From the NCBI GenBank assembly GCA_037833965.1, contig AP031352.1:23106501-23170500 (forward strand): a stretch of DNA of 64,000 nucleotides, read 5' to 3'. Each line of letters begins with the position of its first letter. Positions within the stretch are counted from its first letter, which is position 1. Below the pieces are notes generated by a model, which saw only the letters and a list, made by a program, of their open reading frames with translations, made no database searches and was not told the origin of the DNA. The position numbers were made by a program, and so were the translations under genes. This document shows, one piece after another, positions 8,360 to 40,601 of this stretch. Source of the DNA: Marchantia polymorpha subsp. ruderalis (Eukaryota > Streptophyta > Marchantiopsida > Marchantiales > Marchantiaceae).

Positions 8360-8372
8360 AACCTCCCTCCTT

Positions 8373-12982: not shown

Positions 12983-12999
12983 GCTTTCTCACACTCCCT

Positions 13000-13594: not shown

Positions 13595-13595
13595 T

Positions 13596-15514: not shown

Positions 15515-15520
15515 TTTATA
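15515..15520 (-). promoter_or_regulatory. TATA-like box downstream of the LTR ORF (copy #2)
   Basis: TATAAA (minus strand) in GGTATAAAGTAGTTCAAGGC, followed by a hairpin CAAGGC/GCCTTG. The same arrangement lies downstream of the ORF in #4, #5, #6, #7, #8 and #9. If it is the LTR promoter, the ORF sits in U3 and the roughly 1-kb tail is R plus U5. It could instead be part of a polyadenylation region (AATAAAG in E and #1). Confidence 0.4.
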
Positions 15521-15639
15521 CCTTCTAAGTCCTAACTAGCACTACACAGCACTATGCTACACGCTTGCACGGAACCACGCTACACTACACTCCGCGGAAC
15601 CTGTGCTTTGCCTCCTGCGCGACGGACTGCCGCGCACTA

Positions 15640-18549: not shown

Positions 18550-19060
18550 GGTCGGCTCTCGGTCGTGAAGGTCGAATCACTTGATGGCCGCGCCGGCTCC
18601 GCGCTGCTGGGCTGGCGCCGAAGGCGTTGACCGCGGTCAACAGACTCCGTCCAGTCTGTCCATTTCTCTCGCCTCTTCGTCGGCGCTCTTGTCGCCGTAA
18701 TCCCGACCGGCCGAAGGCGCACTCATCCATTCCGTCCGTACGGTTCGTACGGATTTTCCTACTCCGTTGGGTCCTCGCCCGTCCGCGCTGCTGCGCTGGC
18801 GCCGAAGGCGCCGTACAATTTCCAACCCCGAAGGCGCATTTCTAGGGCCGAAGGCGGATTTCCCGCCGACGCCGAAGCGCCTGTGCGTAGGCGAGCTTCG
18901 CTCGTCCGCCTACGCAGAGGTTTTAATCCTCCCCGCCTACGAGTAGGCGACATTCGCGGCGAACATCCCGCCGACGTCAAACCCTATTTCGCCTACGCGT
19001 AGGCGGACTGCCTTCGTCCGCGCATAGGACAAACTTTCCTCGCCTACTCGTAGGCGAGAA
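17100..19060 (-). repeat. Mini-palindrome field in giant LTR #2
   Basis: Dense GCCGAAGGC/GCCTTCGGC units and perfect or near-perfect 14-mers GCCTACGCGTAGGC, e.g. 17112-17125 (GCCTACTCGTAGGC), 17155-17168, 18991-19004 and 19042-19055. They occur both in the leader and inside the coding linker. They make the leader strongly GC-rich relative to the rest of the window. Confidence 0.85.
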
Positions 19061-19695
19061 GCTGCATGTCTTGCGACCTTCATAACTCCCGGAATCCTCC
19101 TCCGTTCGTGGCGTTCTTGGGCTCGTTAGAATCAGCGCGTCGAGCTCTTGATAACGAGACCCTAACCAAGTCAAGGCGTTTGGGAATTGACCAGGTTCTA
19201 AAGGATTCCTCTAGCGCCGAAGGCGCAGCGCCGAAGGGGTTATTCCTTCAGAGCCCGCATGTAGGGTGGTGTCCGTCCCCGACGTTGCACCCAACTCCTG
19301 GATTCTACGAGTTTTCTCGAGATTCTCTGCGATCTTCCAATTTCACTCTATTTTGATGCACCGAAGGCTATTTACATTGCTACCGCGGTACAGTTTTCCA
19401 AAAATGTTTTAATTTCCTCAAAAATACCAAAAGTGGGGTACTACAGTGAAGAAACAATTCTCAAACAAATTTGGAGAGTTCATGTGTAGAGGCTTGTTTC
19501 ATCTATGAAAGATTGGCATTTTTATCATATTGAAGTGTCGATATGTGTGTGAACTGGACTGATGAATAGTAAAAATGTATGAGAGGGTGTTTGAGACATG
19601 AGTATGAGTAGGAATCTTAGCCTTCAAAAACCATGATATCTTTTGTAAAGCCATCTGAGATAAACCTCAGCGAGAGTCAGGCCGAGGATGTAGAG

Positions 19696-20217: not shown

Positions 20218-20756
20218 TGTAATGACAGACAAATACCAAAATGGAGCATAATGGTATAGATCCGATCCCACGAGGAATGAAACAAACACAAAAGTCATGA
20301 TTTGTCACAAGTTAGCATTCTATTACGAAGTTTTACTTCTTAGGCCAATGCTACTCCCAGAAGACACTACTCAGCTAGAGTCGAAGACTCACAAGGTAGT
20401 GCAAAACCGTACTCACAACCTGAACCTTTTCCAAACACAACCTGCAAGAATTGCAAGCGATCTCACACTTTTTTTTCAGGGGGAAAACTTCCCAGCATTG
20501 CATACATCTCAACACACTTACCCGAATACTCAAACCCAAACTTGCTTAAATCCCGAAGTAACCCCAGGCTACCCAAGACATCCAAGCTGAATACTCGCGT
20601 CTCCCGATGCGGTAACTTCGACAACCAGGAGAGCCTTGTGCTCATAGTCTGGATCACACACCAGCACATAGACACACAGCGAAGACAGAATGACAGTTGA
20701 GACAAGCCAATAGACAAAAAAGCCCCCCAAGGAAAGAGCCTTAGGCCTCTTTATTC

Positions 20757-22645
20757 ACAATGGCAACTCTGGGATATCAACTGCCTGAGGCGAATCGACC
20801 TCAAGGGCTGTGCCGTTTGATGTTACGGTTACAGCATCGTCTGAACTACTCTCTACTCCTAATCTACGCAACACGTTTACAATCTCCACTTCTACATTCT
20901 GGCGCGCCTCATTCAATTCCTCTGAAAATAAATTAACTAACTCTACAATCTGTTTGTGTCATGCGGATCCGCTAGACTTGGCGCTCATCAGCCGTCGCTC
21001 GAGCAGATCCAGTTTCAACCACTTCAGCGAATCCAATCCCCAAATCGCGAACCCGTTCAAGCACTTCTCTAACCGCAATCTCAACACGTCGGTTGAATCC
21101 TCCCGCAGCTGACGGTAGGCATCCTCTGCCTTTTGCATTCTGCTCTACGACTCCTCCGATCTCATCTCCGACTTCCCTATCTGCTCCCGTAACCATTAAC
21201 AGTTAGATTCAACCTTTAATCTACATTCGACCTCCAAAGACTTGTTTGACTCGCAATCCGCCAATTTCTTGGCCCACTCCTTCAATTCTTCTACATGCTT
21301 CTGATTTCCCGCCGACAGACTTGCTGATAGCTCCTCCGCACGTCGGACTTCCATTTCGTACTTTGCGTCAATCTCCGAGATTTCCCTACGAAGATCTTCC
21401 TCCGCCGTCTTCGTACTTGCGAGCTTGCCCCGAAGTTCTTCGGCGATACGAGCTTCTTCGGCTCTTCGGGCTTCCAACTTAGCAAGTTCCTCGACATGCA
21501 TCTTCTCTCGCTTCTCCGCTGTCGTGATCAATCGCTCCGCCCTTTTGATTGCTGCATCGTAAGCTTCTCTAGATTTCTCCAGTTTTGCCATCAAATCCAC
21601 TATTACCTTCTGGGCGTTCTCATTAGAGGTACGAAGTCCTCCGCAGGTCTCTTCCAACTCTGCACAATGTCATAATTACTTCTCTAGATTCAGTTGCAGC
21701 ACTTCACACTCAGTTTCCTTCTCCCGAAGCTAGGCTTCTCGCTCCCGCAATGTTGCCTTCACTGCCGCGTACTCGGTTGACAAGGTTGCAGCTCGCTCCC
21801 GTGCCAATGCAGTCGTGGAATCCCACTTCCTCTTTACTGCAACTGCTCTCTTGAGCTTTGTTCTGTTCTTGATCATCTGAACATAGAATCCTGGCTCCTT
21901 CGATACAGCATACCTTCTCTTCTTGTCCAAGTACTTCAACAATGGTACTACACTGTCCTGCAAGAATTCAGGAAATGTAATTTCCAATGTCTTCACCGCT
22001 TCGCCCGAAGTCTTCGTTCCTTCTTCGGGTCTCACCTCTTCCACAGGAGACGTCGGCAATGTAATGCCCTCAGCTTCCACCACCGTCCCTCCTACCCTTG
22101 TGATCACGTGTTCCAGAATCTCCTCGCTCAAAGTAAACTCCTTCTCCAGGTCCTCGTTCATCTTCATCAGGGGTGTCCCTTCGCCTTGCGCAGACCGTGT
22201 CCGCTCCGAAGACAGAGAAATCGGACTAACCAATTCCGTTCCCTCCTTCAAAGGTTCTGCCGGTATATCTGCCGGAACTTTGATTGACACCTCCGAAGGT
22301 ACCCCTAACTCCACAGATCGCATTACCTCGCTAGTTGCGACTTTGGATGTGTTTACAATTGGTGCCACCGTCTTCTCCACACTGCTATCTGACACCTCAA
22401 TTGTCACATCCTCCGTTTCGCCCTCTTCTTTGGTCTTGCGCGAGCTCTGTGCTGTCTGGCTCCACTTTCATCCATGTCCATCCTTCTTACCACGTGGGCC
22501 AATTCCTCCTCATCATCACTTACGACCTTCCTTCTCTTTGCCACTCGTCTCTCTGGCTCCTGCCTTTGAACCACGTTCACCTGCACTAGTCCTCGAGTGG
22601 TGGTGTGTGTTGGAACTACGGGAGATCGGTTCTCGTCTTCGGTCC
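20757..22645 (-). pseudogene. LTR-borne protein of copy E, C-terminal coiled-coil part
   Basis: Continues the reading frame from 35833-36572 across insertion D. Contains a basic stretch RRVAKRRKVVSDDEEELAHV (22550), a Ser/Val-rich linker, the core FLQDSVVPLLKYLDKKRRYA (about 21970-21910), QMIKNRTKLKRAVAVKRKWD, and a long coiled coil (21790-21200, e.g. ELAKLEARRAEEARIAEEL) ending in LRRLG-type sequence near 20860. It has a frameshift near 22405 and stops near 21730, 21660 and 21196. I recall near-identical coiled-coil segments among Marchantia hypothetical proteins; this is memory only. Confidence 0.75.
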
Positions 22646-24599
22646 TGTAATAACCCACCAAAGGCTGAAACTGCAATATAGTGGTAGAAAGGTCAAATCC
22701 ACAAGGACAGAGGCAACACACAGAGTACAAAGTGTCACATTTAACAGACTATTGAAGAGTTTGAATTCTCAGGCGACTGTCACTCCCAAAAATACTGCAA
22801 GTGTTCACTCGGAGCTCACTAAGAGGTCGCACAGTGCAGCGTAGTTCACTCAACACACACACACACACACACACCTGAAACTATAGAAACACAACTCAGA
22901 GGTCGGTTAGGACCTCTACTTAAGATTTCAGGGGGAAAGTCTCTCACGAGTACATTCAGCGGATCTGCAGGTAGTGACTCCCAACTCCGGCTTTTACAAC
23001 CCTTCCACTAGTTTTTGCTAGCACAAGGAACCCGGATTGGACTTCCTACTTCGGATCGAAGTCACTCACACGCGGTGAACAACACACTCAACTCACAAAA
23101 CGCACAGAGAACACAGGTCTGAACTGAGCAACTCAACTGAGAAACGATCCAGTAGCACACCATAACAGTCTATTGACGAGTTTGAATTCTCAGGCACTAG
23201 TCATTCCCAGAAATACTACAGGGGTTGCCCTGAAGGCACCTGCTCAGCGTAACCTGAATTACAACCAAGGCTTACTCGACGTAACAAAACTTCACTTTGG
23301 CATTCAGGGGAAAAATCCCGAAGGACTACAATTAGGAACCATCACTCGAAAGTGTAAGGGGGAACTGTTCAAGTATCTAACTAGTTACTAGCTCTGAGCA
23401 TCGGCAATCACCCGCAGGTGTAGATCCGAACTACTCAAGTCTCTAACCAGTAAACTAGCTCTGAACATTCGGCCGAAGGCCTTCAGCTACAAAATGCGGA
23501 TCGCCAAGCTGTAGCTCCTCTTGCGTGGTGACAGAACTAAGGACACAAACACGTAGAGAAAATGAGTTCCTGATCTGCACTTCCGAAACTGGAAGAATCC
23601 CAAGGCAAGACGCCTTGAACTACTTTATACCTTCTAAGATCCTAACTAACACTACTCTACCTGCTATGGTGCGAGCCGCAACAAATCCTACACCTGAGGA
23701 GTTGGCGGCTGCCTTCCCCTCTAACTTACAACCAAAATCTAACCCTAACCCTTAATCTGAATCTTAAGCCTACTGTACAGAGCCGCCAGCGTCTTTAACA
23801 GCTTTAGATCCAAGATCTGCGGCTGAAAATTTGCACGCATGCGTGGCGGGTTGAGACCAACGGCGCCACCAAATTTCAAGTTCATTCGACTGTCCATCGC
23901 AAAGATATGGGCCCCGCAAGATCTCTGAACCCAGGCCAAAATTCCTTCTTCAAAATCCGAGGTCCGGAGGACCCACATGCCGCTTGAATGCCGTTCCCGC
24001 GATTATGGGTAACGGCCTGCTTCTCACGTGCGACTTCACGCCCCGCCATTCTGCCTCCCATGCGCGACTTCACGCCCCGCTGTTCTGCTTCCCACACTTG
24101 ACATAATCTCGCCAACTTCCGCCATTGGGAATCTTTTGCCACGTGGTGCCAAAGGCCCTTGAGCCGAAGGCGCATCTTCCGGCGGTTCTGTGGTACCCCA
24201 TTTTTGGTATTTTTGAGGAATTTAAAACATTTTTGGAAAACTGCACCGCGGCAGCAGTGTAAATAGCCATCGGTGCATCAAAATAGAGTGAAACTGGAGG
24301 ATCTCGGAGAATCTCGAAAGATCTCGTAGAATCCAGGAGTTGGGCGCAACGTCTGGGACAGGCGCCGCCCTAAATACGGGCTCTGAAGGAGTACCCCCTT
24401 CGGCGCAAGGCGCGAAATCCGCCTTCGGCGCTGCGCCTTTGGCGCTAGAGAAATCCTTCAGAATCTGATCAATTTCCAAACGCCTCGACTTGGTTAGAGT
24501 TTCATTGGAAAGAGCTCAACGCGCTGATTCTAACGAGTCCAAGAACGCCGCGAACAGATGAGGACTCCGAGAGTTATGAAGGTCGCAAGATAGGCAGAT

Positions 24600-25320
24600 T
24601 CTCGCCTACGCGTAGGCGAGAAAAGTTTGTCCTACGCGCGGACGAGGGAAGTCCGCCTACGCATAGGCGGAATAGGGTTTGACGTCGGCGGGATGTCCGC
24701 CGCGAATGTCGCCTACTCGTAGGCGGGGAGGACTGACACCTATGCACAGGCGGACGCAAAGGTCGCCTACGCACAGGCGCTTCGGCGTGGGCGGGAAACC
24801 CGCCTTCGGCCCTAGAAATGCGCCTTCGGGGTTGGAAATTGTACGGTGCCTTCGGCGCCAGCGCATCACGGACGGGCGAGGACCCAACGGAGTAGTAAAA
24901 TCCGTACGGACCGTACAGACTGTACGGACGAGTGCGCCTTCGGCCGGTCGGGGTTACGGGGACAAGAGCGCCGACGGAGAGGCGAGAGAAATGAACAGAC
25001 TGGAAGGAGTCCGTTGACCGCGGTCAACGCCTTCGGCACAGCCGCCTTCGGCGCTGCGCCTACGGCGAGGGACCTGCGCGGACGAACGTCTGATGCGCGG
25101 ACGGAATTCGCCTACGCGTAGGCGAGCGCTTATGCACAAGCAGATGAAGTTCTGCGCCGGCGGAGATTCCGCCGGGGATTCCGCCTACGCAGAAGGGAGT
25201 TCGATTTTTGTCCTATGCGCGGACGATTGCCTTCGGCGGAGCGGGACTGGCCAAAGTTAAGTACGAACAAATGTAGCGCGCCGACGAGAAATCCGCCTTC
25301 GGCGCTGCGCACCCATGTCC
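24600..25320 (+). repeat. Mini-palindrome field in the leader of #5
   Basis: Perfect GCCTACGCGTAGGC at 24604-24617 and 25110-25123, GCCTACTCGTAGGC at 24711-24724, and many GCCTTCGGC units. It also carries a TCCGTACGGACCGTACAGAC stretch of overlapping ACCGTAC/GTACGG palindromes (24900-24925). Same composition as the #2 leader. Confidence 0.8.
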
Positions 25321-25485
25321 GCGGCGTAGTACGCTAGCGGAGTTCAAATTGCCAATTCGAGCGTGTGAGTTAAGTCAGCGTCGGCGGAGCGTGAAGCCGC
25401 GCGTGAGAGAGGAGGCCGTTATAGCTAGGAGCCGGCGCGGCCATCAAGTGATCCGACCTTCACGACCGAGGGGAACACACCATTC

Positions 25486-27146
25486 TTGAATTCGCGATTT
25501 CACTTTCTAGTGCGAGCTGCGCGCGTCCACCTGCTAGCTGTTAGACACTCTAAACATCGCCGCGCGGAGAATTACTTGGTGGCTGAGAGAGAATTGAGTG
25601 CGCGCGAGTTGGAATTGAGAGAAATTAGAGTTTGCAGAGGAGGCAGAAGCGCGAGCAAGAAGCTCGAGCGGAGCAGAGAGATAGTTGTTGCGCAAGCTAA
25701 TTTCAAGAACGCGATGTCGAAGTTGAACAGGCTGCGGATGATGCCACTCCGGCTTCCACAGAACGGGTTGCGTGCTTTTGAGGAGCGGCTGATTGCAAGA
25801 AAACTCGAGTTCTTGCTGTGGGGATGGAATTACGTGTGTGTAGACATGGTGCGCGAATGGCTAGACGCGGAGCGACAACCTACGCGCGGATTGCGTCCGC
25901 ATGTAGATAGGTGGACCGTCCACGATTGGGCACAGGCATTGGGGAGGTGTGCCGGCAACGACGGGTACCTCCTATTTGATAATGAGAGCGTCACGGTGTC
26001 GAAGCAGGAGGAAGCGCAATTCGTGGAATTGTTCAAGCGGGGGAGGTCTTCCAAGAACGAGTACAAGACCCGCGACTACAAAGATCGTTTCCGTAGGACT
26101 GTAGCGGCGGCGCTGCTGCAATTGTTGCAGCCGCACCGCACTTCGTACATCACTTTGTGGCAGGTGTCTTTTGTGGAGCTCACATTAGCCGGAGCTCCAG
26201 TTCACTGGGCGCGCATCCTACATAGGGTGATGCGACAACACGCATATGAGGAGAAAGGAGGAACTCTCAATCACCTCTCCCCTTTCTTGATAAACTTTTA
26301 TCGACAGAGTAATTGTTTGACCGCGGCGGAGCTTACTCTCTTTCCGCCATTGTCAGTCGACCATCCCGGGAAGTATGTGCGGGATAACGAAGTCGACACC
26401 GACGCAGAGGATTCGCCAACTTCCACTCCCCTGACTCAGCGGGACGAGGGAAGAAACACACCAGCAGCAAGAGTGCCGCGGAAACAAAGATGGAGAGAGG
26501 AACCGGAGGAGGAGCAACATGGAGAACCCACTGCTCCCATACGGCAGCGGCCACTGCACGAAGTGTGCAGCCGGCCGAAGCAGAAGGCGCGCAGGCTTGT
26601 GTTACCAGCCAGTAGCGCGGAAACGGCGACGATCGCCACGGAGAAGGGAAGTGCGTCCCCGGAGAAGGATGGGACTGCGCGGACGTCCGCAGGAGCGGTG
26701 GACCACGCTGCACTTTCAGCGGATGAGAGACGGCCTTCGGGTCAGGAGTTACCACGTGCGATGCGGACGAGTGTGCCGTCTACGCACAGGCGACTCCCTG
26801 TGGACAGGCGACCTCTTGCAGACGTGGACCTCTGCCTACGCGTAGGCAGAGAAAGTTCGCCTACGCATAGGCGGCCGCCTACGAGTAGGCAGGATTCACC
26901 CCCGGTACAACGTAGGAAGGGGAAGGAGCCGGTGGAAGATCCGCCTTCGGCTCAAGGGCCTTCGGGGCAAGGTACATCGGGCGGGCGGCCTTCGGCTCTA
27001 TCACCTTCGGCGGTAGACGCCTTAGGCGCTGCGCCTGCGGCGGATAATGCGCCGGGAATTGCGCCTACGCGTAGGCCGGACGCATCCCTCGCGCATGACC
27101 GATCGAGGGAGCAGGACCTAACGAAAGAGCGGATTGTCTGTCCGCG
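25486..27146 (+). pseudogene. LTR-borne protein of #5, N-terminal 553 codons (best preserved copy)
   Basis: Open without stops to the chromovirus B insertion. N-terminal basic/amphipathic segment (NSRFHFLVRAARVHLLAVRH), a coiled stretch to 25720, then the conserved domain: NGLRAFEERLIARKLEFLLW, GRCAGNDGYLLFDNESVTV, KTRDYKDRF, QPHRTSYITLWQVSFVEL, HWARILHRVMRQHA, LSPFLINFYRQSNCLTAAEL and YVRDNEVDTDAEDSP (to about 26420). A low-complexity PSA/RRP linker follows. Two palindromes are translated in different phases (LCLRVG at 26834-26847, PTHRR at 26859-26872). No ATG start is obvious; 25486 begins with an in-frame TTG. Domain family not recognised. Confidence 0.75.
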
Positions 27147-27231
27147 TGTAACCATCTTTAGTTAGTTAGAACTAAAGTAGAGGTTACTCTAAATATTGAT
27201 GTAGATACTTTAGTGTGCACTAGTCATAGCT

Positions 27232-27402
27232 GCCACGTTAGCGATCCGCGCACTTGGTAGGTACAGAGTGGATGTGTTAGTTGACAGTGCCACGTCAGCA
27301 ATCCGTATGCTCGCAGGTAAGGATTGAGTGTGTTAGTTAGTGTGTTAGTTGGGTGCGCCACGTCAGCGATCCGTGTGCTTGTTAGGGTTATCCGCCACGT
27401 CA
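27232..27402 (+). promoter_or_regulatory. U3 array of four bZIP-type CCACGTCA motifs
   Basis: GCCACGTTA 27232-27240, GCCACGTCAGC 27289-27299 and 27357-27367, GCCACGTCA 27394-27402. The complement TGACGTGGC has the ACGT core of plant bZIP (G/C-box) sites. Each of the first three is followed by a related (G/A)ATCCG(C/T).. segment, so the array is a decayed tandem repeat. It lies 70-240 bp upstream of the TATA box. The 3' LTR and chromovirus A keep the array. Confidence 0.6.
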
Positions 27403-27470
27403 TCCATCCACTAGGAGTGGGATGAATGGTGGGGATTAGATCTTATCACCTTGTACTTGTTGGTGAGAGC

Positions 27471-27479
27471 TATATAAGG
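27471..27479 (+). promoter_or_regulatory. TATA box of the chromovirus B LTR
   Basis: TATATAAGG, with the transcript start expected about 30 bases downstream. The same box occurs at 33111-33119 in the 3' LTR and in both LTRs of chromovirus A. Confidence 0.7.
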
Positions 27480-27567
27480 GAGAGGAGAACCATTGTTGGG
27501 ATCTTTCATCTTCAGAGTTTACGTTTCTATCTTCGAGTGAGCTTCTCTCTAAACCCTAGTGTTACAA

Positions 27568-27579
27568 TGGTATCAGAGC
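27568..27579 (+). other. Primer binding site, chromovirus B
   Basis: TGGTATCAGAGC, the perfect complement of the initiator-Met tRNA 3' end, one base after the LTR. Confidence 0.95.
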
Positions 27580-27729
27580 GACCTTGCTCTTTCCTTGAGT
27601 GTGGATTACCCCTCATGGAATAGCAAGTGAGTGATGATGGAGTGTAGTCTTGAGAGTGTATAGAGGCTGGCAGAGGTCATTCATCTGCATGTAGAGAGAG
27701 GTGGAAGGGGAAATTGTGATTTTGCAGAT

Positions 27730-28162
27730 ATGGACGGGATTGACAGGAATCCAATACCGCACTGGCCAATTCCTAACCTATTCGATATTCACCTTCGTTG
27801 CATGAAGAAACATCATTTTCGGATGTACATTGTGGCTTGTTGGGGTGCAGATTTTATGACTAGAGTGATGGAGTCAAGAGTGCCACTGATTCTTCCAATA
27901 GTTACTTATGAAGAGACTTGGGATTGTACTATATACATTCTATATTGATTGTTTCATGGATTTGAATCGCGAACCACCTGTGCCGGTTCGATTCAGCACT
28001 TATGTAGAGATTAGAACAGTATATAGACAGAAGAGGATATGGAGAGATTTTCTTGTGAGGAATTATGGAGAGGAATACTATAGAGTTGTGATAGAGTCAC
28101 CTGCACCTTTTGTGACTCCTTTGTTGAGAGGTCACATAGTGATTATACTCACTTTGTATTAG
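27730..28162 (+). pseudogene. Pre-gag leader reading frames, chromovirus B
   Basis: Frame a (27730-27948, 72 codons) begins MDGIDRNPIPHWPIPNLF and continues VACWGADFMTRVMESRVPL. Frame b (27908-28162, 84 codons, +1 phase) encodes FMDLNREPPVPVRFSTY, VYRQKRIWRDFLVRNYGEEY and TPLLRGHIVIILTLY. They overlap by 41 bases. Chromovirus A has the same pair with mostly conservative differences and the same +1 relationship. I do not recognise a domain. Ordinary plant chromoviruses have no protein here. Confidence 0.5.
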
Positions 28163-28179
28163 AGGGAGTGTGAGAAAGC

Positions 28180-29341
28180 ATGGGAACATCAATTGATATG
28201 GGTGAGGTTCTCAATGCAATCATGGCGGAGATGAAGGAGTTGAGAAAAGCGATAGTAGATGGGCATACCAAGCAGCAAGCCATGGAAGATAAAATCTTCG
28301 CATTAGAGAGTGAGAAAGTAGAGAGAGAGAGTTGGAGAGATGGAAGTTGAACCTCAAGTTCAAGCTTCCCAAGTTCAGCCAGAACCAACTCCTATTGATG
28401 CAGTAGAGGCAAATAGGAGACGTCTTCAAGAGATTGAAGATCAAGCAAATCTTTTGCTTCGAATGGAAAAATCCTGTAAGGTGGAAGCTTACAAAGGGAG
28501 TAGAGCAATGGGAGTGTTAGAGGGATGGATTATGAAGATGAATATTCATTTATCCCATTTTCATGTTTCTGATTATATTGCAGGAATGTTCATGAGATCT
28601 TATCTTACGGATAAGGCTCTCACATGGTACACAACATGGGAGAGAATGCTTTCAGAACGAGGTGCTACCATTTCGTGGAGTGGAATGCAGGAAGGACTTC
28701 TGCAAAATTTTCAAGCGGTGGATTCTCTTCAAACTGCAAGAATGAAGTTGTGGAATCTGAAGCAGAAAGGAGGTATTCATGAGTACATTGAAGAATTTCG
28801 TGACTTTCAAATATCTATCATGGATATGAGTGGAGCTGAAGCCTTGGACGTGTTAGAACGAGGCTTGAAAGATCGAATTCGAAAGGAGGTGATGGTAAGC
28901 AATCCATCTACTGTGAATGAAGCAATCGCAATTGCTCAACGAATTTCGGGTGCTTTTGGTGTCACACACGGTGAACTTGTGAGCAATTTTAGAGATCCAT
29001 CTGGTCCAACACCGATGGAGTTGGGAAACCTTCGACGTAGAGAAGGTTTTGCACCAACAAGAGGACCACCACCAAGATTTGGAGGTGAGATTAGGCGACC
29101 AGGAGTTCCAAATTTGCAAGAAGGTTATGCAAATAATGGAATGGTTCGAGGAGGAGCTGGAGTTCGTGACAATCGCCAATGCTATGCATGTGGACGAATG
29201 GGTCACATAGCCAAGTTTTGTCGAGTTCGGCCGACACAACAAGGAGGACGGCCCATGCAGCAACGACCGTTCAACAATATGGAGGGGATAGAGTATGAAG
29301 AGATGGAGGAAGCAATTTCGGGAAACGAAGATCACCAGTAA
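28180..29341 (+). pseudogene. Chromovirus B Gag
   Basis: ATG at 28180; 2 bases are missing in an AG microsatellite near 28320-28333 compared with copy A, so the frame breaks, then stays open from 28340 to TAA 29339-29341. Contains the gag core (MRSYLTDKALTWYTTWERML), Arg/Gly/Pro-rich linker and CCHC knuckle CYACGRMGHIAKFC (about 29180-29221). Expected to form the particle and bind RNA. The slip in the dinucleotide repeat is its only obvious lesion. Confidence 0.9.
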
Positions 29342-29364
29342 TCTTGCCTCGCGGCCTTACTGGT
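29320..29364 (+). promoter_or_regulatory. Predicted -1 ribosomal frameshift signal, gag-pol (copy B)
   Basis: Slippery GGGAAAC (29320-29326) in phase G_GGA_AAC with gag. Spacer of 7 nt. Hairpin arms ACCAGTAA (29334-29341) and TTACTGGT (29357-29364), with an inner GCC/GGC stem (29346-29348 with 29353-29355) closing a 4-nt loop. The gag stop is inside the stem. The pol frame is open from 29299, overlapping gag by 43 bases. Confidence 0.8.
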
Positions 29365-31690
29365 TCTACAAAGCGAAGAAAAGGCGAGGTTGGAAGAAGG
29401 CAATGGTTGGGAGCTCATGGAAGGAGTAAGAAGCAAGCTCAACTCATTGTCACTGACGGTTTCATGGAAGGACACAAGGTGAAAGTTTTAATTGATCCTG
29501 GAGCAACTGAGAATTTTCTATCAAGGAGTGTTGCTATGAAGTTAGGTTTGATGTTGATGAAGGACGTGAGTGAAGAAGTTGAATTGCCAAACGGGCAAAC
29601 TGAAGTGATAGAAACACTACCACGGACTGTAGAATTATCCATAGGTAGAGGAGAAGGAGAGCATTGAGTGGAGAGTAATTTGTTTAGCTCGATATGATGT
29701 CATCCTTGGAATGCCATGGATGGAACAATATAATCCGAAGGTAGATTGGAGAAGAAAAGTGATTACAAGTAGTGGATGGAAGATCTATGGAGATAGAATT
29801 AGATCTCAGAATAGGAATTTACCCCTCTTTGTGATGGGTACAGCATCCATTTCTAGAGATGATGTATGTTTCCTTGGACTTATAAGAGATATTGGGTCCA
29901 CGGACAAACCTTACATCCCGGAGTCCTTGAACGACATTTTTATGGAGTATAAAGATGTTTTTCCAGATGATCTACCTGCAGGATTACCACCAAAGAGGCG
30001 AGTAGATCACAAGATTGAGGTGATACCTGGAAGTACACCAACTTGCAAAGCTCCATATCGTTTGGCTCCAAACGAATTGGAAGAATGCAAAGCTCAAGTG
30101 GAGGAGATGTTGAGCAAGGGATTCATTCAACCAAGTGTTTCACCTTATGGAGCTCCAGTACTCTTTGTGAAGAAGAAGGATGGATCCATGAGACTATGTA
30201 TCGATTATCGCGGGTTGAATCAGCAAACAGTGAAAAACAAATATCCATTACCTCGTATGGATGATTTGTTTGATCAACTTCAAGGAGCGAAGTACTTCAC
30301 CAAGCTAGATCTGAGAAGCGGCTACAATCAAATTCGAATTGCAAATGAAGATGTTCACAAGACAGCTTTTCGTACTAGGTATGGACACTTTGAGTATCTA
30401 GTGATGCCTTTTGGTCTCACTAATGCACCAGCTACATTCATGGGATTGATGAACGATATCTTTCGCCCTTATCTAGATAAATCTGTCATTGTTTTTCTAG
30501 ATGATATATTGGTGTATAGCAAAACTTTGAGTGATCATAGAAGTCATTTACGAGAGGTACTTCAAGTTTTAAAAGACAATCAATTGTATGCCAAAGCTTC
30601 AAAATGTGAATTTGGCAAGTCAGAAGTAGATTACTTGGGTCATAGAGTTACAGCTACATGAATCCAAGTGATGAGTGAGAAGATAGATGCCATTCAGAAA
30701 TGGATAGCACCTGAGGATCAAACTCAATTGAAGAGTTTTCTAGGGCTCATTGGATTCTATCGTAGATTTGTGAAAGGTTTTGCTCGACTAGCTCAGGCCT
30801 TGACTTCCATGTTAGGGAAAGGTCAAAAGTGGAGATGGGGAACAGCTCAAGAGTTAGCTTTTCAAGCATTGAAAGATGCTTTGTTACACGCACCTATTCT
30901 CAAGTGGTATGATCCTAACCGTTCTATCAAGTTGGCCACTGACGCATCAGGTACAACAGTAGGTGGCATACTTCAACAAGAATGGGAGGATGGATGGCAT
31001 CCAGTTGCTTTCTATTCTCGAAAGTTGGTGGCGGCGGAACAAAATTATCACACGACAGAACGGGAGGAGTTAGCCATCGTGTTGGCAACCAAACATTGGA
31101 AGCATTATTTGGGTGATAAGGAGTTTGTGGTGGAGACTGATCATAAACCCTTGGTTTATTTGGAAACTCAGAAGGATCTGTCCAAATGACAAATTCGATG
31201 GGCAGAGTGGCGTCAACGCTTCAACATGAAGATTGTGTACGTGGAGGGAAAGAAGCAACTTGCAGATGCTCTCACACGCATGCCTTGTTTGAATCATGTT
31301 GCAGAAGTGAAAATTCAGGCAGATTGGTGGAGCAAGATGTCACAAGCCACAAAGGAGGATGAAGAGATCACTCGGACACTACAAACTGGAAAGGCAGAGA
31401 AATCTCGAGGTTTGGCGTTTTACAATCAGCGTATATGGATTCCACAAGATCACGATTTGCGCACAATGATTTTGGCAGAAAGTCATGATACAGCCATTGT
31501 AGGTCATGTGGGAGTGGAGAAAACCGTGGAGAGTATACAACGAGTGTACTATTGGCCCAAAATACGCGAGGATGTGGAGTCTTATGTTCGAAGTTGTGTT
31601 GCTTGTCAACAAAACAAGGCAAGTAATCAAAAACCAGCGGGTTTATTACAGCCTCTTCCTATTCCTGAACAGCGGTGAGAACATGTCACC

Positions 31691-32773
31691 ATGGATCTTG
31701 TATGTGAGTTACCAAGGACTTCGTTAGGACATGATTCAGCGGTGGTTTTTGTGGACAAATTGACCAAGATGATTCACATCAGGCCAACCACAAAAACAGT
31801 AACAGCTCCACAACTAGCTCAATTGTATCTAGATGCAATTTTTGTGAATCATGGCTTAAGCAAAGTGTTAATCACGGATAGAGGTACTCACTTCACTAGT
31901 TTATTTTGGAAAACTTTGTTTAGTTTTTTCAAAACAAAACTAGCAATGTCAACGGCCTATCACCCTCAAACTGATGGACAAACTGAGAGGGCAAATAGAA
32001 CCATAGAGGATATGCTACGAGCATTCACATTAAAAGAGCAAGAAGAGTGGGACAAACTTTTGCCACTTGTGGAATTTGCATATAACAATTCAGTTAATGC
32101 ATCCACAAAAGTGTCTCCATTTTTTCTTATGTATGGAGCTCATCCTATAACTCCTTCAAGTTTGATGAGACTTCCCAAAGGAGAGGAGTTTTCGACCAAA
32201 GTTGCAGCAGTCAACAAATTCGTGGAGCATATTCACCGAGGACTACATCAGGCCAAGGAGAAGCTGGTGATAGCTCAAAATCGGCAAAAGCAGCATGCCG
32301 ATGCTCATCGTAGAGAAGTGAATTTTGAGGTTGGAGATCATGTTTGGTTATCTACAACAAATTTGTCTCTTGTAGGAACACCAAAGTTAAACCCTAGGTT
32401 CATTGGTCCATTTTTGGTTTTGAAGCGTGTTGGTGAAGTGTCATACAAGTTGAAACTTCCGTCACATATGAAAATACATCCAGTATTTCATGTGTCACGA
32501 TTGCGAAAACATGTACCACGACCAAAACAATTCATCAACCAACCAGCACCACCTCCTCTTCCAACCTTGATAGCAGATCATGAGGAGTTTGAGGTAGAAA
32601 AGATACTCAAGAAACATATTCGAGGTCATAAATACCCCAAAGTAGAGTATTTGATTCAATGGAAAGGCTATCAATCGTATGAATCAACTTGGGAACCAGC
32701 TAAAAATTTAGCAAATGCACCTTTGATAGTTCAGGAGTTTGAACGTATGTGCAACGAGGACGTTGCATCTTAA
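31691..32773 (+). pseudogene. Chromovirus B integrase core and chromodomain (longest open part)
   Basis: 360 codons open without interruption, including the catalytic core, the C-terminal GPY/F-like region (HVWLSTTNLSL..NPRFIGPFLVL) and the chromodomain at the very C-terminus. The upstream zinc finger is separated from it by the TGA at 31676-31678. The aromatic cage residues of the chromodomain cannot be proven by eye, but VE..L..W.GY..STWEP is typical. Confidence 0.9.
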
Positions 32774-32786
32774 AACGAGGGAGGTT
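32774..32786 (+). other. Polypurine tract, chromovirus B
   Basis: AACGAGGGAGG followed by TT and then the LTR start at 32787. Primes plus-strand synthesis. Confidence 0.75.
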
Positions 32787-33205
32787 TGTAACCATCTTTA
32801 GTTAGTTAGAACTAAAGTAGAGGTTACTCTAAATATTGATGTAGATACTTTAGTGTGCACTAGTCATAGCTGCCACGTCAGCGATCCGCGCACTTGGTAG
32901 GTACAGAGTGGATGTGTTAGTTGACAGTGCCACGTCAGCAATCCGTGTGCTCGTAGGTAAGGATTGAGTGTGTTAGTTAGTGTGTTAGTTGGGTGCGCCA
33001 CGTCAGCGATCCGTGTGCTTGTTAGGGTTATCCGCCACGTCATCCATCCACTAGGAGTGGGATGGATGATGGGGATTAGATCTTATCACCTTGTACTTGT
33101 TGGTGAGAGCTATATAAGGGAGAGGAGAACCATTGTTGGGATCTTTCATCTTCAGAGTTTACTTTCTATCTTCAAGTGAACTTCTCTCTAAACCCTAGTG
33201 TTACA
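32787..33205 (+). repeat. Chromovirus B 3' LTR
   Basis: 419 bp, about eight differences from the 5' LTR, most of them transitions. TATA box at 33111-33119. Followed by the CCGCG duplication. Confidence 0.96.
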
Positions 33206-34345
33206 CCGCGGGATGAAATTCGTGTGCGCAATGCACAATTGCACCCCGCGCAGTCACATTCCGCGCGATCACCTTCGGCAGCGGACGCCGGCGGCGAAGG
33301 AGTGACGATCGACGCACGACAGGCGGATGATGGGGATGTGGCACGGCCGCATTCACCCACCGCCTTGGACATTTTAGCGGGGAGCAGCGAGGCTGCTGGA
33401 GCGCCATCGACGGCAGAACCTACAGACCCCACGCAGCCCCATTCGGGCCAGTCGCAAACGCAATCAATGACGACCGAAATCCTTCCGTCGGATGATGACG
33501 AAGGAGGATCCACAGAATCAGTGTGGGGATCGGGAGACACCGAGGAAGAGGAGGAAGAAATCGTTGGTGCGCCGACGGCGGCGCTCTGTGAGCAGGTAGT
33601 ACCTCTGTTGAGGTACTTGGATCGCAAAATCGATAAGTACGCGGACCCTCGCCAGCCTGGGTCCTACGTCGAGTTAGTGCGCAGGCAAACTCGCACTAAA
33701 GTCCACACCAGCAAGCTGCTAGCTCGGGTGGACCGGGAACTTAAGGAGCTGCGGGAGCAGTATGAATGCTTGTGGGGTCAGTACAATCTCGTTCGGAAGA
33801 CGCACACCCACTACGACAAGGTGAAGAAGGAGAGACTGGAAGAGCTCACCAAGGATCTGGTGAAGACCACGGAAGCACTAATTTTTGAGAAGACATAGAA
33901 TCAGGTGCTGTCAAAGGAGCTCGTGCGACAGACGCGGTTGTTGGAGCAGTGTCAGCTCGCACGACAGGCGGATGAGGACTTAATCCGCAGGCTGCAGTCG
34001 GAGTGCGGAGAATTGAGAGCTTAGCGTGCGGAGGCCGAATCGCAGTTGGTAGTAATTGAAGACGATCGCAGGCGAGAGGCAGATCGCACGAAGGAAGAGA
34101 TGGCGAGGCGAGTCGCCCACTGGGAAGTGGCGGCGCAGGAGAAACTCACACTGCGTGAGTTAGAGCTTCGTGCAGCCGGGTTGTTGGCAGGTGACAGTCG
34201 GAGTCGGCGGCGGGTAGCGAAGGAGCTGGATGCTTTTCTATCGAAGGCGCGGGACACATGTCCACCCTTGAGACGGAGGTTTTCACGGTGTTGCGGCGAT
34301 TGGGACTACGCAGTCGAGCGGAAGACTGGCAGGGTAGGGAGTTAG
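33206..34345 (+). pseudogene. LTR-borne protein of #5, C-terminal part
   Basis: Resumes the frame of 25486-27146 after chromovirus B: DEIRVRNAQLHPAQSHSARS, an acidic linker (SDDDEGGSTES, EEEEEIVG), the core VVPLLRYLDRKIDKYADPRQ (33595-33655), SYVELVRRQTRTKV, and the coiled coil. CAG-to-TAG type stops at 33896-33898 and 34022-34024, and a lost base near 34258 that shifts the last segment. The order matches copies #2, #8 and #10. Confidence 0.75.
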
Positions 34346-34461
34346 TGCGCGGCAGTCCGTCGCGCAGGAGGCGAAGCACAGGTTCTGCGGAGTGTAGTGT
34401 AGCGTGGTTCCGTGCAGTAGTGTAGCGTAGTGCAGTGTAGTGCTAGTTAGGACTTAGAAGG

Positions 34462-34467
34462 TATAAA
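34462..34467 (+). promoter_or_regulatory. TATA-like box and hairpin after the ORF of #5
   Basis: TATAAA followed by CAAGGCGTCTTGCCTTG (6-bp stem). Same position and sequence as in the other giant LTRs (e.g. 46407-46412, 49503-49508). Confidence 0.4.
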
Positions 34468-34479
34468 GTAGTTCAAGGC

Positions 34480-35435
34480 GTCTTGCCTTGGGATCTTTCC
34501 CAATTTCGGAAGTGCAGATCAGGAACTCATTTTCTCTGCGTGTTTGTGTCCTTCGTTCTTTCACCACGCAAGAGGAGCTACAGCTTAGCGATCCGCATCG
34601 TGTAGCTGAAGGCCTTCGGCCGAATGTTTAGAGCTAATACATTGGTTAGAGACTTGAGTAGTTCGGATCTACACCCGCGGGTGATTGCCGATGCTCATAG
34701 CCAGTGACGAGTTAGATACTTGAATAGTTTCGTCCCTACACTTTCGAGTGATTGTTCCTGATTGTACTCCTTCGGAATTTTTCCCCTGAATGCCAAAGTG
34801 AAGTTTTGCTACTTCGTGCAAGCCTTGGTTGTAAATTCAGGTTACGCTGCAGCAGGTGCCTTCAGGGTAATCCCTGTAGTATTTCTGGGAATGACAAGTG
34901 CCTAAGAATTCAAACTCTTCAATAGACTGTTATGGTGTGTTACTGGAATGTTTCTCAATGAGTCCTTCCGTGCGGACCTGTGTTCTCTGCGCGTTTTGTG
35001 AGTTGAGAGTGTTGTTCACCGCATATGAGTGACTTCGATCCGAACTAGGCAGTCCGAACCGGGTTCCCTACGCTGGCAGAAAGCTAGTGGAAGGGTTGTA
35101 AAAGCCGGAGTTGGGAGTCACTACCCGCAGCTTTGCCGAGTGCACTCGCGAGAGACTTTTTCCCCCTGAAATCTTGAGTAGAGGTCCTAACCGATCTCTG
35201 GGTTGTGTTTCTGTAGTTTCAGGTGTGTGTGTGTGTGTTACGCTGCACTGTGGGACCTCCGAGTGCGCTCCGAGTGGACATTTGCAGTATTTCTGGGAGT
35301 GACAGTCGCCTGAGAATTCAAACTCCTCAATAGTCTGTTAAATGTGACACTTTGTACCCTGTGTGTTCCTCTGTCCCTGTGGATTTGACCTTTCTACCAC
35401 TATATTGCAGTTTTAGGCTTTAGTGAGTTATTACA
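34480..35435 (+). repeat. Two-unit noncoding tail of #5
   Basis: Two diverged units in tandem, about 418 bp apart. Each has TTCTCTGCG.G.TTTGTG, a GTTACGCTGCA segment, then ATTTCTGGGA.TGACA.., GAATTCAAACTC.TCAATAG and a TGTTA end. The same duplication is present in #2, #4, #6, #7, #8 and #9 but not in #1 or E. Confidence 0.7.
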
Positions 35436-35832
35436 GGTTCTTCCGCCGAAGTCGCTTGCCCCGAAGGCTCCCTATCAGTAACTTCCGACACTCATAACTC
35501 ATTGATCTATTATTCGTTCCAAGCGTTCTTGGGCTCGTTAGAACGAGCGTGTTGAGCTCTTTCCAACAAGTTTCTAAGTAACTCAAGGCATTACGAATTG
35601 AAAAAGTTATGAGTGATCTACCGCCAAAGGTGCTCGAAGCGGGTCCTGCAGCATGAACCACCCGTTCCATCCCAAGCGTTCAACTGTGGCCTAAGCCCAA
35701 AACCCCTTGACTGTCCTCGATCCTCTTTTTACTTTGGTTTTGCGTACCGATTACTATTTACAGCTGCTACTGCCGTACTTACCATTCAAAAATGTTTTAG
35801 TTCCGACGAAAAACAAAAAGTGGGTTACCACA

Positions 35833-36572
35833 GGTCCATTCACTGGACTGCACTGTAAAGCTCTCCCGCTCCCTTGGAAATCGCTTCTCCTCCTCCCTCG
35901 TTAGCAATCCCATTCCTCGATAGAAATTCACCAGAAATTCACCAAGGGGGTAAGATGATTGGTCATAGATTCCGTCCATCGACCAGACGCATTCACCCAT
36001 ACAAGATCGTAAAAGATCCTTGCCCAATGTACGCGTTGTCCCTTCAAAATGCGTTCGAAGAATCCCACCTACCAGGCCGTCACATAAGTCGTGCGCGCCG
36101 GCCGTAAGATGTGCATGATCCCTAATGCAATCGCCCTTCTCTTTGGATCCTTATAATCGACAGTCTTCCATCCATTCGTTTCCTGTCTTCTAGTCTCGAA
36201 GAGAGGCCCGTAAGAAAATTCCTCGACGCGCGTAAGTCCTACGCTATTCTTGTCAAATAGAAGGTCTCCGTCGTTTCCCGCACACGGTCCCATTACTTTC
36301 GTCCAATGCTCAATGGTCCACAGCATGGGATTACCGCGGAGCTCCTCGCCTTTGGTCGCGCTCTTGTCCATAACTTCCTTGCAGATACTCGCTGAGACGC
36401 AATTCCAATTCCATAGAAGGAATTCTAGCCTCAGTTCCCTCAACTCGTGTCTAAAGGGTCTCAATTCCTCATACGGCACCTTCAAGGGAACCAATTTCCT
36501 CACCTTCTCACTCTTCTTGGGCGCCATGTGTTCAATTTGTGTTTCGCTAATCGCGGGTGGGCTCGATTGCAA
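35833..36572 (-). pseudogene. LTR-borne protein of copy E, N-terminal domain
   Basis: Starts about 36572 with a short leader and MAPKKSEKVRKLVPLKVPY at 36530. Domain pieces: FRHELRELRLEFLLWNWN, MGPCAGNDGDLLFDKNSV, KTVDYKDPKRRAIALGIMH, RPARTTYVTAW (then a TAG, likely from CAG), and LVNFYRGMGLLTREEEKRFP (35930). It clearly corresponds to the N-domain of #2, #5, #8 and #10 but is diverged, so E is a separate older subfamily. Cut at 35833 by element D. Confidence 0.75.
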
Positions 36573-36952
36573 TTCCTCTCGCTCTCGATCGTTCTTGCTT
36601 GATATCGCAATGTTGGCGCGCAGTCTCCTCCTACTGCCTTTACCCTTGAAGCCCTAACATTGCCTTCTCCTGCGCCCCGTAGAGCTCCCGACGCGTGCGA
36701 ACCTCGTCCGGCCCGTTGCATGATTTGAAATTGATTCCGATGTCTTCGCCGAAGACGCAGCTCTTCGTGCGTCCTAAAAAGACTGCGCCGAAGACACGAA
36801 GATCCGAAGATCTTCGGACGTAGACCAATTCTAACTAATCCTATCATAACTCCTATAAATCTACTCTTTCCAACTAATATAACTATCTTCTACACACATA
36901 TGTTTATGTTTTTGTTAACTTTTTAAAGAAAAACAAAAAAGTAGGCCCCACA

Positions 36953-36969
36953 TACTCCTCTCCCCATTT
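36953..36969 (-). other. Polypurine tract before giant LTR E
   Basis: Minus strand AAATGGGGAGAGGAGTA, immediately followed by the LTR start TGTGGGG at 36952 and preceded by the Pol stop (36993-36991). This is the layout expected at a retrotransposon 3' LTR. Confidence 0.75.
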
Positions 36970-36990
36970 GTGACTGACCCCGCGAACACT

Positions 36991-38235
36991 CTATGTATAA
37001 TACTTCTTCACCCTATGTCCATTCACTCGGGTCGCATGCAATTCACCGGAAAGGTCTGCTAGCTACACGGACCCATTTGGAAACACGTCTACTACTTTGT
37101 AAGGTCCCATCCAGCGCAAGTGCAACTTTCCTGGGAACCTAGCATGTCTACTATCGTACAATAAAGCAAAATCTTCTTTGAGCAAGGTCACTAGTCGGAC
37201 GCGTTTATCATACGCCTTCTTTCATTTCAATTGTATCTGCTCTGTGTGCTGCTTTGCCGCTTCCCTTCGTTCTTCCAATGACAACACTTCCTGCAATCTG
37301 TAGAGCTAACTCTCTTCATCTTCCAATCTGCGGCGATCCAAAATCCGGTGGGTAGGTAGTTCAAACTCATTGGGTAGGATGGGGTGTTGACCATACGTCA
37401 GGTAATACGGTGTTTGCTTCGTAGTCACCTTCTCTGCAGTACAATAGGCCCATAGTGGGGCTGGCAACTTCGTATCCCAGTCATGTGCATGGTTTACCGT
37501 CACTTTCAGCAATATCTTGCAGAGTAACTCATTTGATTTTTCAGTGAGTCCATTCGCTTTCGGATGGTAAGGAGTAGTCTTCCGATGCTTGATCTGGAAG
37601 TGAGAAGTGAGGTCCTCGATCACTGCATTCAGGAAGTGTGTACCTCTGTCACTTACCAACTCCAGGGGGCATCCGTACCTAGTGATGATGAGTTCAAACA
37701 AAAATTTCGACACCGTTGCCGCATCATCCTTCCGGGTTGCCTCCGCTTCTACCATCTTCGTGGCATTATCCGTCGCTACAAGGATGTATCGTCTTCGGGT
37801 GTGTCTTGTAGCTGGTTGGATTGGCCCTACGAAATCAATTCCCCATTTCCCAAAAGGTGCCAACGGCATGATGGGAACGAATGGCCAGCGCGTAGTGGGA
37901 GTGGGTCGTCCCGTTCTTTGGCAGCTGTCACATCTTTGGATATAGTCATGCGTATCCTTGAACATTGTGGGCCACCAGTAACCTGCATTCAAGATCTTTG
38001 TTACTGTATTACGAGTGGCATAATGCCCTCCGGCATCCTCCGTATGCATTGCGGCGATCACTCGTCCAACCTCCGAGGCCTCCAAACATCGACATAGTCG
38101 CTCATCCGGTAGCAGTTTAAAGAGCACTCCCTGTTGGATCTGATACGGTCCAGCCTTGTGGATGAAGACAGCTCGCTGTTCTGCATCTAGTTCCTTCGGA
38201 CATTGCATGGTTTGTAGTTGCACTTGTTTGTAGTT
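36991..38235 (-). pseudogene. Gypsy integrase (non-chromodomain lineage) 3' end of Pol
   Basis: Minus-strand integrase: zinc-finger HTEDAGGHYATRNTV..C..C (GYWWPTMFKDTHDYIQRCDS, about 37960), core with GKWGIDFVGPI, SDRGTHFLNAVI and NGLTEKSNELL (DDE triad, 37830-37520), then, after a frame change near 37300, FPGKLHLRWMGPYKVVDVFP and HRVKKYYT, with stop at 36993-36991. There is no chromodomain, unlike elements A and B. Truncated on the upstream side by giant LTR #6 at 38236. It is the only pol in the window physically attached to a giant LTR. Confidence 0.85.
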
Positions 38236-40601
38236 TGTGATAACCCACCCAAGGCTAAATTGCAGTATAACAGCAAAAGATCGAACACACAAAGACAGGA
38301 ACAACACACAGAGTACAAAGTGTCACGTTTTAACAGACTATTGAGGAGTTTGAATTCTCAGGCTACTATCACTCCCAGAAATACTGCAAGTGCTCAACTC
38401 AGAGGTCACTCGGAGGACACACAATGCAGCGTAGTACATCCCAAACACACACACCTGAAACAAGTAAATGCAAAACTTAGAGGTCGATCAGGACCTCCAC
38501 TTAAGATTCAGGGGGAAAGTTTTCCAAGAGTACACTTAGAGGATCTGTAGGTAGCCACCAATTCCGAATCTACTTAAACCCTGTCACTAGTCATTGCTGG
38601 TGTAGAGCATTCAGGTTGGAACTCCTACTTCGGATGCGGTACCTTCGTCAAACCAAAGTTCCTCTCACGCGGTGAACAACACACTCAACTCACAAAACGC
38701 GCAGAGAATACAAAAATCCGAACTGAGAAACTAAGTTGAGAAAAGAACCAGTGTTACAACTTAACAGTCCATTGACGAGTTTGAATTCTCAAGCAACTGT
38801 CATTCCCAGAAATACTGTGAAGGCTTGACAACTACCCCAAAGGCCACTGAAGCAGCGCAACACACTCAACCTGAATTCAACCAACTCTCACTCCGAGTTA
38901 ACAAAACTTCACTTTGGTATTCACGGGGGAAAATCCCGAAGGAATACAAACAGGGAAAATCGTCCGAAGGTGGAAGTCCGAACTTGCTTAGATCTTGACT
39001 AGACTACGCTAGCTCAGAATGCCTTCGGCTGTAGGCTGCGGTAATTTCAACAATCTATAACTCCTCTTGAGCGGTGACAGAACGAAGGACACAAAGGCGC
39101 AGAGGAAACGACTTCCTGAACTAAACTTCCAAAACTGGAAAATTCCCCAAGGCAAACGCCTTGGACTACTTTATACACTCTAAAGTCCTAACTACCTAAC
39201 ACTCTACCTCATCGGCTATGCCTCCTATGAGTCGGCCGACGACCCACTCATTCCCTACCCGTTCACTCGTCTGCCCTCCTACGCAGTCCGAGCCGCCGCA
39301 ACACCTCGGTAACCTCTGGCTCAAAGTTCGCAATGGCGTCCCGCGACCTGGACAGGAATGACTCCAACCGAGTCACCACTCGCCGCCGACTTCGTCCGTC
39401 GCCAGCCATCAAAGCTGTCGCACGCATCTCAAGTTCGCGCAACGTCATCCTCTACCGCGCCGCGATCTCCCAGCGAGCATAACCTCTCAAACAACGGTCA
39501 ACCCGCAAAACTAATTCCTCCCGCGTGCGTTCTCAATTCGTCGCACTGCGACTGCAGTTGACCCAACAACTCCTCGTCTTTCCTTCTTGCGGCCTCGCTC
39601 TACTCTAACGCCTGCGTCTTTCGCATGAGCTCATCCGCCAGTTTGGGGTTTGAATCTGCTCGACACTGAAGTTCGTCTGGACCTTCGCACATAGCTCATC
39701 AATTTTGCGCCGCACATTGGTCACCATCTCATCTCGCAGCTTAAGTGCCGCCTTCTGCAGTTTCCGAGCTAAGGCACACTGATCCTGAAGAAAGTTGTAG
39801 CACTCCTCCAATTGCCGATACTTCTGGTCTAGGACCATCAATTCGGGATTCGTTGCCACCTTGATCCGCGTCTGATTCCGGACCAGCTCAACATAGGATC
39901 CACACTAGCGGGGATCCCCTTACTTGGTCGCCTTGCGATCAAGGTACCGGAGTAGCGGTACCACTTGCTCGCAAAGCACTTTGGTCGGTGTACCTCCTCT
40001 TCCTCTGAAGGCATGTCCTCTTCTGTCTCAAGGATTTTTATCGCTGCAGAAATCCGTGGCGATTCTCTAGCACTGGGCATCGCAGCCTCCTCTGCTGCGG
40101 CCTCCACTCCATGTCTTGCTAGTACTTCCAACGGGGTGGGAGAACCCAGCCCAGGCGGACCTACTACATCTTCCCAATCTAGTCCCGCCGAAGGCGCTTC
40201 CGCCGAAGTCAGACGTGTCTCTATCTCCCTATCTTCGCCCGTAGGAAAGCTCTCTGGGGGTTTCAGCGCCGAAGGCCCTTGTTACGAAGGCGTGTCATCA
40301 AACGGTACTTGCTCTAAAGGCAAGCATCTCTCCTCCGCAGGCATTCTGGCCGTTGCTGCACGCCTTCCTCTATGGCCCGAAGACCTAAGTGCTTCCGCCA
40401 AAGGCACTCGTGCCTTCGGCGCAGGGAGATCAGTCGACCTGCCAAGAACCTCTGTACTGACATCCTCCTCGGAGGAAAGTGAGGCCCTCGCAATTGCAGC
40501 TCGCTCTGTGTTCGCACTGTTGCCCGGTGGCAAAATCAGCTTGCTAGCCTTGTGCTTTGGTCGGGCTTGCTCGTTGATTGCCCGACGCCTGACTGCGACA
40601 A
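38236..40601 (-). mobile_element. Giant ORF-bearing LTR #6, partial
   Basis: Plus-strand edge TGTGATAACCCACC at 38236, next to TAGTT (38231-38235), inserted in the gypsy integrase. Two-unit tail 38236-39180, TATA-like box 39170-39175 with a 7-bp CCAAGGC hairpin, ORF piece 39230-40601. Interrupted at 40602 by #7; its remaining 5' half is not found in the window, and no second TAGTT can be assigned. Confidence 0.75.
39263..40601 (-). pseudogene. LTR-borne protein of #6, C-terminal two-thirds
   Basis: Pieces in family order on the minus strand: RPKHKASKLILPPG (40560), SSEEDVSTEVLGRS and Pro/Ser/Ala linker (40480-40150), a core region (ending about 39900), TNPELMVLDQKYRQLEECYN (39850), and coiled coil to LRRLGLRRRADE (39263). 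Several stops and frameshifts. The TNPEL segment is shared with #10 (52500), so #6 and #10 form one subfamily. Confidence 0.7.

Follow-up and report, generated by a model that had tools for sequence, protein, structure and literature searches.

A family of Ty3/gypsy retrotransposons in the liverwort Marchantia polymorpha subsp. ruderalis carries within its long terminal repeats (LTRs) a gene that spans about 1,000 codons, is under purifying selection and is found intact in solo LTRs. As a rule LTRs do not encode protein, and solo LTRs are regarded as dead scars. We analyzed a stretch of 64,000 nucleotides (C3:23106501-23170500, hereafter the window) in which one such LTR, here called E, lies beside an integrase frame, and we searched the whole genome (241,466,482 bp in nine contigs) for its relatives. 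Our reading, which we hold with considerable confidence, is that this LTR, mostly its U3 (unique 3′) region, is the gene itself, and that its product is probably an accessory protein, most likely one that binds the leader of the LTR.

The organization of the family can be read from a complete element (C8:6396687, loci L051/L052; hereafter C8), in which two LTRs of 5.4 kb (5,402 bp aligned, 99.8% identical) enclose, in this order, a primer-binding site (PBS), gag frames, a pol frame of 946 codons and a polypurine tract (PPT). An earlier note on the window had proposed a search for elements with two direct copies of the unit flanking gag-pol, and had considered that the unit might instead sit between separate LTRs; C8 is an element of the former kind, and in this one complete element the 5.4-kb units are outermost, with the target-site duplication (TSD) TGCGA outside them. 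Pfam matches are zf-CCHC in gag and, in order along pol, RVT_1, RNase H, H2C2 and rve, and a protease motif, DSGSG, was recognized by eye. The direct TG..CA repeats with their TSD, the PBS and PPT, and the order gag, protease, reverse transcriptase (RT), RNase H, integrase identify the family as Ty3/gypsy. The gag, protease and pol of C8 share one frame that holds two in-frame stops, one between the gag pieces and one between protease and RT, which may be readthrough signals or signs of decay.

The 3′ LTR of C8 contains an open frame of 1,054 codons (approximately LTR positions 1224-4385) that runs in sense to gag-pol, and the frame in its 5′ LTR has one TGA. From the ATG used, the protein has 971 residues, so that the earlier estimate of up to about 930 codons was about right, intact frames being found elsewhere in the genome. 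The protein consists of a conserved helical N-domain, a variable linker rich in Pro, Ser and Ala, and a charged, coiled-coil-like C-terminal part. It has 59 database homologs, of which the 51 named are Marchantia hypothetical proteins; named homologs come from Marchantia and Riccia only, and the closest is from M. polymorpha subsp. ruderalis. A protein of 883 residues (P0008) from Riccia sorocarpa, of a different liverwort genus, shares the N-domain. The frame had 13,584 first-look places in the genome, and among the 47 best, which were scored and are 97-100% identical, 40 have no stop and seven have one, proportions that describe these best copies and are not a genome-wide rate. Eight pairs of scored copies lie 11,165-11,194 bp apart, which is the LTR-to-LTR distance. 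Ten of the 40 intact copies, taken from the top of the list and outside those pairs, were inspected: six are solo LTRs with an exact 5-bp TSD, two are 5′ LTRs (with PBS) and one is a 3′ LTR (with PPT), while the start boundary of the tenth was not recognizable. Intact protein-coding solo LTRs therefore exist.

Ka/Ks (the ratio of nonsynonymous to synonymous divergence) was calculated by the Nei-Gojobori method between the C8 frame and 15 other frames, excluding those of the C8 5′ LTR; it was computable in 11 comparisons, the other four being saturated in Ks. Whole-frame values were 0.17-0.35; by part they were 0.11-0.29 for the N-domain (seven pairs), 0.22-0.53 for the linker and 0.19-0.28 for the C-terminal part (three pairs). 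The N-domain of E gave 0.13 (0.07-0.25) and 0.14 (0.07-0.23) against the two LTR copies of a related element, B (described below), and other E-family pairs gave 0.08-0.66; E-family integrases gave 0.19-0.56 and the later frames of the E-family LTRs (21199-22748) 0.20-1.32. The N-domain is thus under purifying selection, and the true constraint on the protein is probably stronger than these values, since decayed copies raise Ka/Ks. The earlier view of a many-copy plant family whose LTR encodes a conserved N-domain plus coiled-coil protein is supported. A short E-family frame at 35800-36150 gave 0.85-3.2 in four of five comparisons, and therefore it is either not a coding frame there or is free of constraint. 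The N-domain also changes quickly: its proportion of nonsynonymous differences (pN) is 0.437 (B versus C8) compared with 0.112 for the integrase (E versus C8), whereas the synonymous proportion (pS) is 0.84-0.85 for both, which marks a fast-changing accessory protein.

E itself is a single 3.54-kb 3′ LTR on the minus strand, now in two pieces (36952-35833 and 22645-20218), as the earlier note had held on the ground that it starts exactly after a PPT behind a gypsy integrase. That junction is as described: on the minus strand the PPT AAATGGGGAGAGGAGTA (36969-36953) is followed directly by TGTGGGGCCTAC at 36952, where E begins with TGTGGGGCC, 3′ of an integrase frame (37306-38208, minus strand) that matches Pfam rve and Integrase_H2C2 and is 78% identical to C8 pol residues 539-945 (tblastn). 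This pol fragment extends to 38235, where another LTR unit cuts it. A near-identical PPT precedes the 3′ LTR of two further elements, B and C. The 5′ piece of E (35833-36952) aligns with positions 6-1113 of the B 5′ LTR at 88.7% and the 3′ piece (20218-22645, terminal TCATTACA) with positions 1109-3544 at 88.8%; because both pieces are collinear with that LTR, and because the 5-bp overlap of the two matches is GGACC, the TSD of a unit nested in E, the whole is one LTR, and the end of the B LTR adjoins a PBS. No matching TSD flanks E, which is what one LTR of a provirus should show. The possibility that the junction is an unrelated insertion, raised with the original claim, is contradicted by this alignment and by the junction's recurrence: a 301-bp query gave 889 first-look candidates, and 38 of the 40 scored (72-100% identity) span it, so that it is not a chance insertion. 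Four of these loci (A-D) were retrieved with their flanks. In element B (C1:4254115) the unit is repeated directly across an internal region (2,321 bp, 92.8%), and element C (C1:1908599) has the same repeat in pieces; no clean LTR pair was identified in the fetched flanks of A and D. The upstream LTR copy of C ends with GTGTCATTACA and 14 bases on is the PBS, TTTTGGCACCGCTGCCAGGG, which we take to be of Tat/Athila type. The protein of E is decayed: its N-domain (36072-36653, minus strand) is 88-89% identical in amino acids to both B LTR copies and about 37% to the C8 protein, and its later part (21199-22467, minus strand; frames 21733-22467 and 21199-21669) has homologs among the frames of B, C and D. 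Contig C1 (5.59 Mb, about 2.3% of the genome), which is probably the U sex chromosome, holds 27 of the 40 scored junction matches, and the E family seems concentrated there.

Across the genome, the PBS pattern occurs at 1,246 places and the LTR 3′ end at 6,462 (each with at most two mismatches), and the LTR 3′ end plus spacer and PBS start at 1,358 (at most three mismatches), with no match to any reversed control. The mismatch limits differ between patterns, which makes ratios of the counts rough, yet 6,462 LTR ends against 1,358 junctions indicate that most of the LTR ends found are not those of 5′ LTRs before this PBS. Among 30 PBS loci inspected, 15 have the 3′ end of the units (..GTTATTACA) directly upstream, and in most of the rest the end is of the E type or a variant. 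At C2:31351098-31384683 and C6:8282776-8308064, LTR/PBS junctions or LTR genes recur at steps of about 11.18 kb, as tandem arrays of alternating LTRs and internal regions.

Where in the LTR does the frame lie, and how could it be expressed? The C8 LTR has a single TATAAA at about position 4425, some 40 bases after the frame ends, and in seven of the eight window LTR ends tested a TATA box stands 940-998 bp before the 3′ terminus, E having none at that distance. Because the TATA box stands just behind it, the frame most likely lies in U3, and the LTR would begin with a leader of about 1.2 kb, continue with the frame (about 970-1,050 codons) and the TATA box, and close with R-U5, about 0.95 kb long. 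Since both ends of newly made DNA would take their U3 from the 3′ end of the RNA, every insertion would start with two copies of the gene, and LTR-LTR recombination that removes gag-pol would leave a solo LTR able to retain it. With the TATA box behind the frame, production of the protein would presumably require either RNA splicing or a promoter located in the leader.

Several explanations of these units and their frame have to be weighed. That they are non-autonomous terminal-inverted-repeat (TIR) or miniature inverted-repeat (MITE-like) DNA elements, with the E/integrase junction a coincidence, would fit their TG..CA ends, which form an imperfect inverted repeat, and their 5-bp duplications, but is refuted by the PBS behind the 5′ copy and the PPT before the 3′ copy, as well as by the collinear match between E and the B LTR and the 1,358 LTR/PBS junctions; we give it virtually no credence. 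It is highly improbable that the frame is open through composition or a recent burst only and encodes no useful protein. The scored copies are so similar that their intactness alone could reflect youth, but the low N-domain Ka/Ks holds between divergent copies and families, the Riccia homolog matches 19% of the query at 33% identity, and 300 first-order Markov versions of the C8 LTR yielded no frame longer than 403 codons, against the 1,054 observed. A third gene resembling the env-like gene of Athila, its position having slid into the LTR, would likewise lie in sense after pol, as plant env-like frames do in the account of PMC7264820. We consider this very unlikely, because the frame is wholly within the LTR and a hydropathy scan, the one method applied, found no membrane-spanning segment (the 19-residue Kyte-Doolittle mean peaked at 1.14, and no window exceeded 1.6).

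The LTR protein probably serves the family in trans as an accessory protein. By analogy with VANC of the VANDAL DNA transposons, it is most likely a DNA-binding factor that recognizes words repeated in the U3 leader and acts against silencing or in the regulation of transcription. Family-specific arrays of repeated words occur in five of six unit leaders, for example GCCTTCGGC eight times in the leader of the unit at 43036-47404, seven of them in one orientation, and are weak in that of C8. VANC, as PMC5735166 describes it, is also element-encoded, joins a conserved domain to a variable repeat-bearing region and changes faster than the enzyme gene, although its carrier is a DNA transposon; it is associated with family-specific motifs iterated in noncoding DNA, which the leader arrays may resemble. 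Repeated words are also found inside the coding parts, with a similar array in the chromovirus of the window. VANC21 ranked first for model 1 of the N-domain by both Foldseek and VIA-align, but as a weak match that was neither significant nor reproduced; no sequence similarity to VANC was found in the LTR protein. That the protein is anti-silencing as such is a doubtful proposition, and only tentatively would we suggest that the LTR forms an anti-silencing unit complete in itself, with a DNA-binding protein encoded in U3 behind its own motif array. The leader word GCCGAAGGC/GCCTTCGGC (as at 43234-43737) is an interrupted palindrome, a strand of which could presumably fold as a GAA-loop mini-hairpin, and the arrays may serve as structures in DNA or RNA and not as sites for a protein. 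A different, and in our estimate rather unlikely, role is that of a second structural protein, Gag-like or a nucleic-acid chaperone of the particle, serving packaging or nuclear import. The highly charged coiled-coil-like C-terminal part, the lack of a membrane segment, the sense orientation behind pol and the purifying selection would all suit such a protein, but its N-domain changes much faster than the integrase, and the Pfam scan found no zinc knuckle in it, gag already having them.

The nearest known counterpart by position is sag of mouse mammary tumor virus (MMTV), a superantigen gene in U3 of a betaretrovirus LTR, and the earlier note's mention of it as the known animal case agrees with PMC4667437, which describes protein-coding LTRs from MMTV-like betaretroviruses. 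Like sag, the Marchantia gene most likely lies in U3, upstream of the TATA box, and would be copied into both LTRs; unlike sag, it has a frame of about 1,000 codons that is contained entirely within the LTR, and its family is a plant Ty3/gypsy one whose LTR ends number in the thousands. The comparison is one of position. No plant LTR with a conserved gene turned up in our searches of the open-licence PMC literature. Grande gene23, RIRE2, Retand ORF4 and the env-like frames of Athila and Bagy2 are likewise accessory frames downstream of pol, but are placed in the internal region by PMC7264820 and PMC11963269; those of the Retand type are antisense, whereas the Marchantia frame is in sense and inside the LTR. 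The N-domain plus coiled-coil layout recalls the transposase-28 and SMC-like frames of Retand, although transposase-28 (PF04195) was not listed for any protein scanned and had three sub-cutoff matches in the genome. Retrosat2 is also a plant LTR retrotransposon with an extra frame and LTRs above 3.2 kb, but its ORF0 is described in PMC3485330 as upstream of the gag-pol frame and not within the LTR. The RT motif and PBS bear what we take to be a likeness to Tat/Athila, and by this resemblance the family would be Tat/Athila-like. The C8 pol has no second RNase H (Pfam matches, from two overlapping models, at 353-482 only), and the Tat/Athila lineage Tat Z, Ty3/gypsy elements of Marchantia, likewise lacks the additional one; the account of that lineage consulted describes no protein encoded in its LTRs.

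The remaining TG..CA units of the window are LTRs as well. Of the roughly ten with 5-bp duplications that had been claimed, five have exact TSDs (TTCAC, GGTTC, GGACC, CAAGG and GAAGG), whereas E has none and, for at least five other single ends (1778, 38236, 40602, 50697 and 55352), no partner shares the duplication. The claimed size of 2-5 kb is close to that of the complete window LTRs (1.9-5.2 kb, nested inserts excluded). That the relatives of E are solo LTRs with a frame is correct for several, but two are frameless and the frame of E is decayed; the window frames are broken or partial, the longest open stretch being 578 codons (25429-27162). The solo LTR at 14546-19445 (minus strand, TTCAC) has a coding frame (18570 to 15560) with 71-74% amino acid identity to C8 residues 3-596 and 635-1054. 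That at 24189-35435 (plus strand, GGTTC; frame at 25429-27162, then 33206 to about 34420) matches C8 residues 7-646 and 639-1054 (tblastn) and is split by a chromovirus at 27147-33205. A decayed coding frame is found in the solo LTR at 43036-47404 (plus strand, CAAGG). Two LTR fragments on the minus strand are the one that cuts the pol of E (38236-40601; 3′ end present, 5′ end looked for and not found, C-terminal frame match at 39994-39221) and one at 52180-55352 that starts with TGTGGTAACC at 55352 and has a well preserved N-domain frame (54281-53247). The frameless solo LTRs, one of 1.9 kb nested in E (22646-24188 plus 35441-35832, minus strand, GGACC) and one of 2.5 kb (47965-50481, plus strand, GAAGG; 49475-50481 matches the 3′ kilobase of coding LTRs), retain both ends, the TATA box and the 3′ kilobase, and are probably non-autonomous relatives. 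The window also holds two copies of a chromodomain Ty3/gypsy element (7950-14003, minus strand, and 27147-33205, plus strand) with 96% mutual identity, LTR pairs 98-99% identical and TSDs TATAT and CCGCG, the chromodomain being seen in the second copy. A second, diverged pol fragment (50698-51060, plus strand; residues 824-944, 46% identity) lies beside the LTR start at 50697.

A gene within the LTR has its fate separated from that of gag-pol, and insertions that would be called dead could continue to supply the protein. Such genes may also mislead gene annotation, as the 59 matching database proteins suggest. If the LTR is an anti-silencing unit, solo LTRs would stay protein-making and open chromatin for the whole family, part of them being genes and not relics, and protein and motif would co-evolve family by family. 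Marchantia, a tractable model plant, is a setting in which to study how a gene is maintained within the promoter repeat of its own element.

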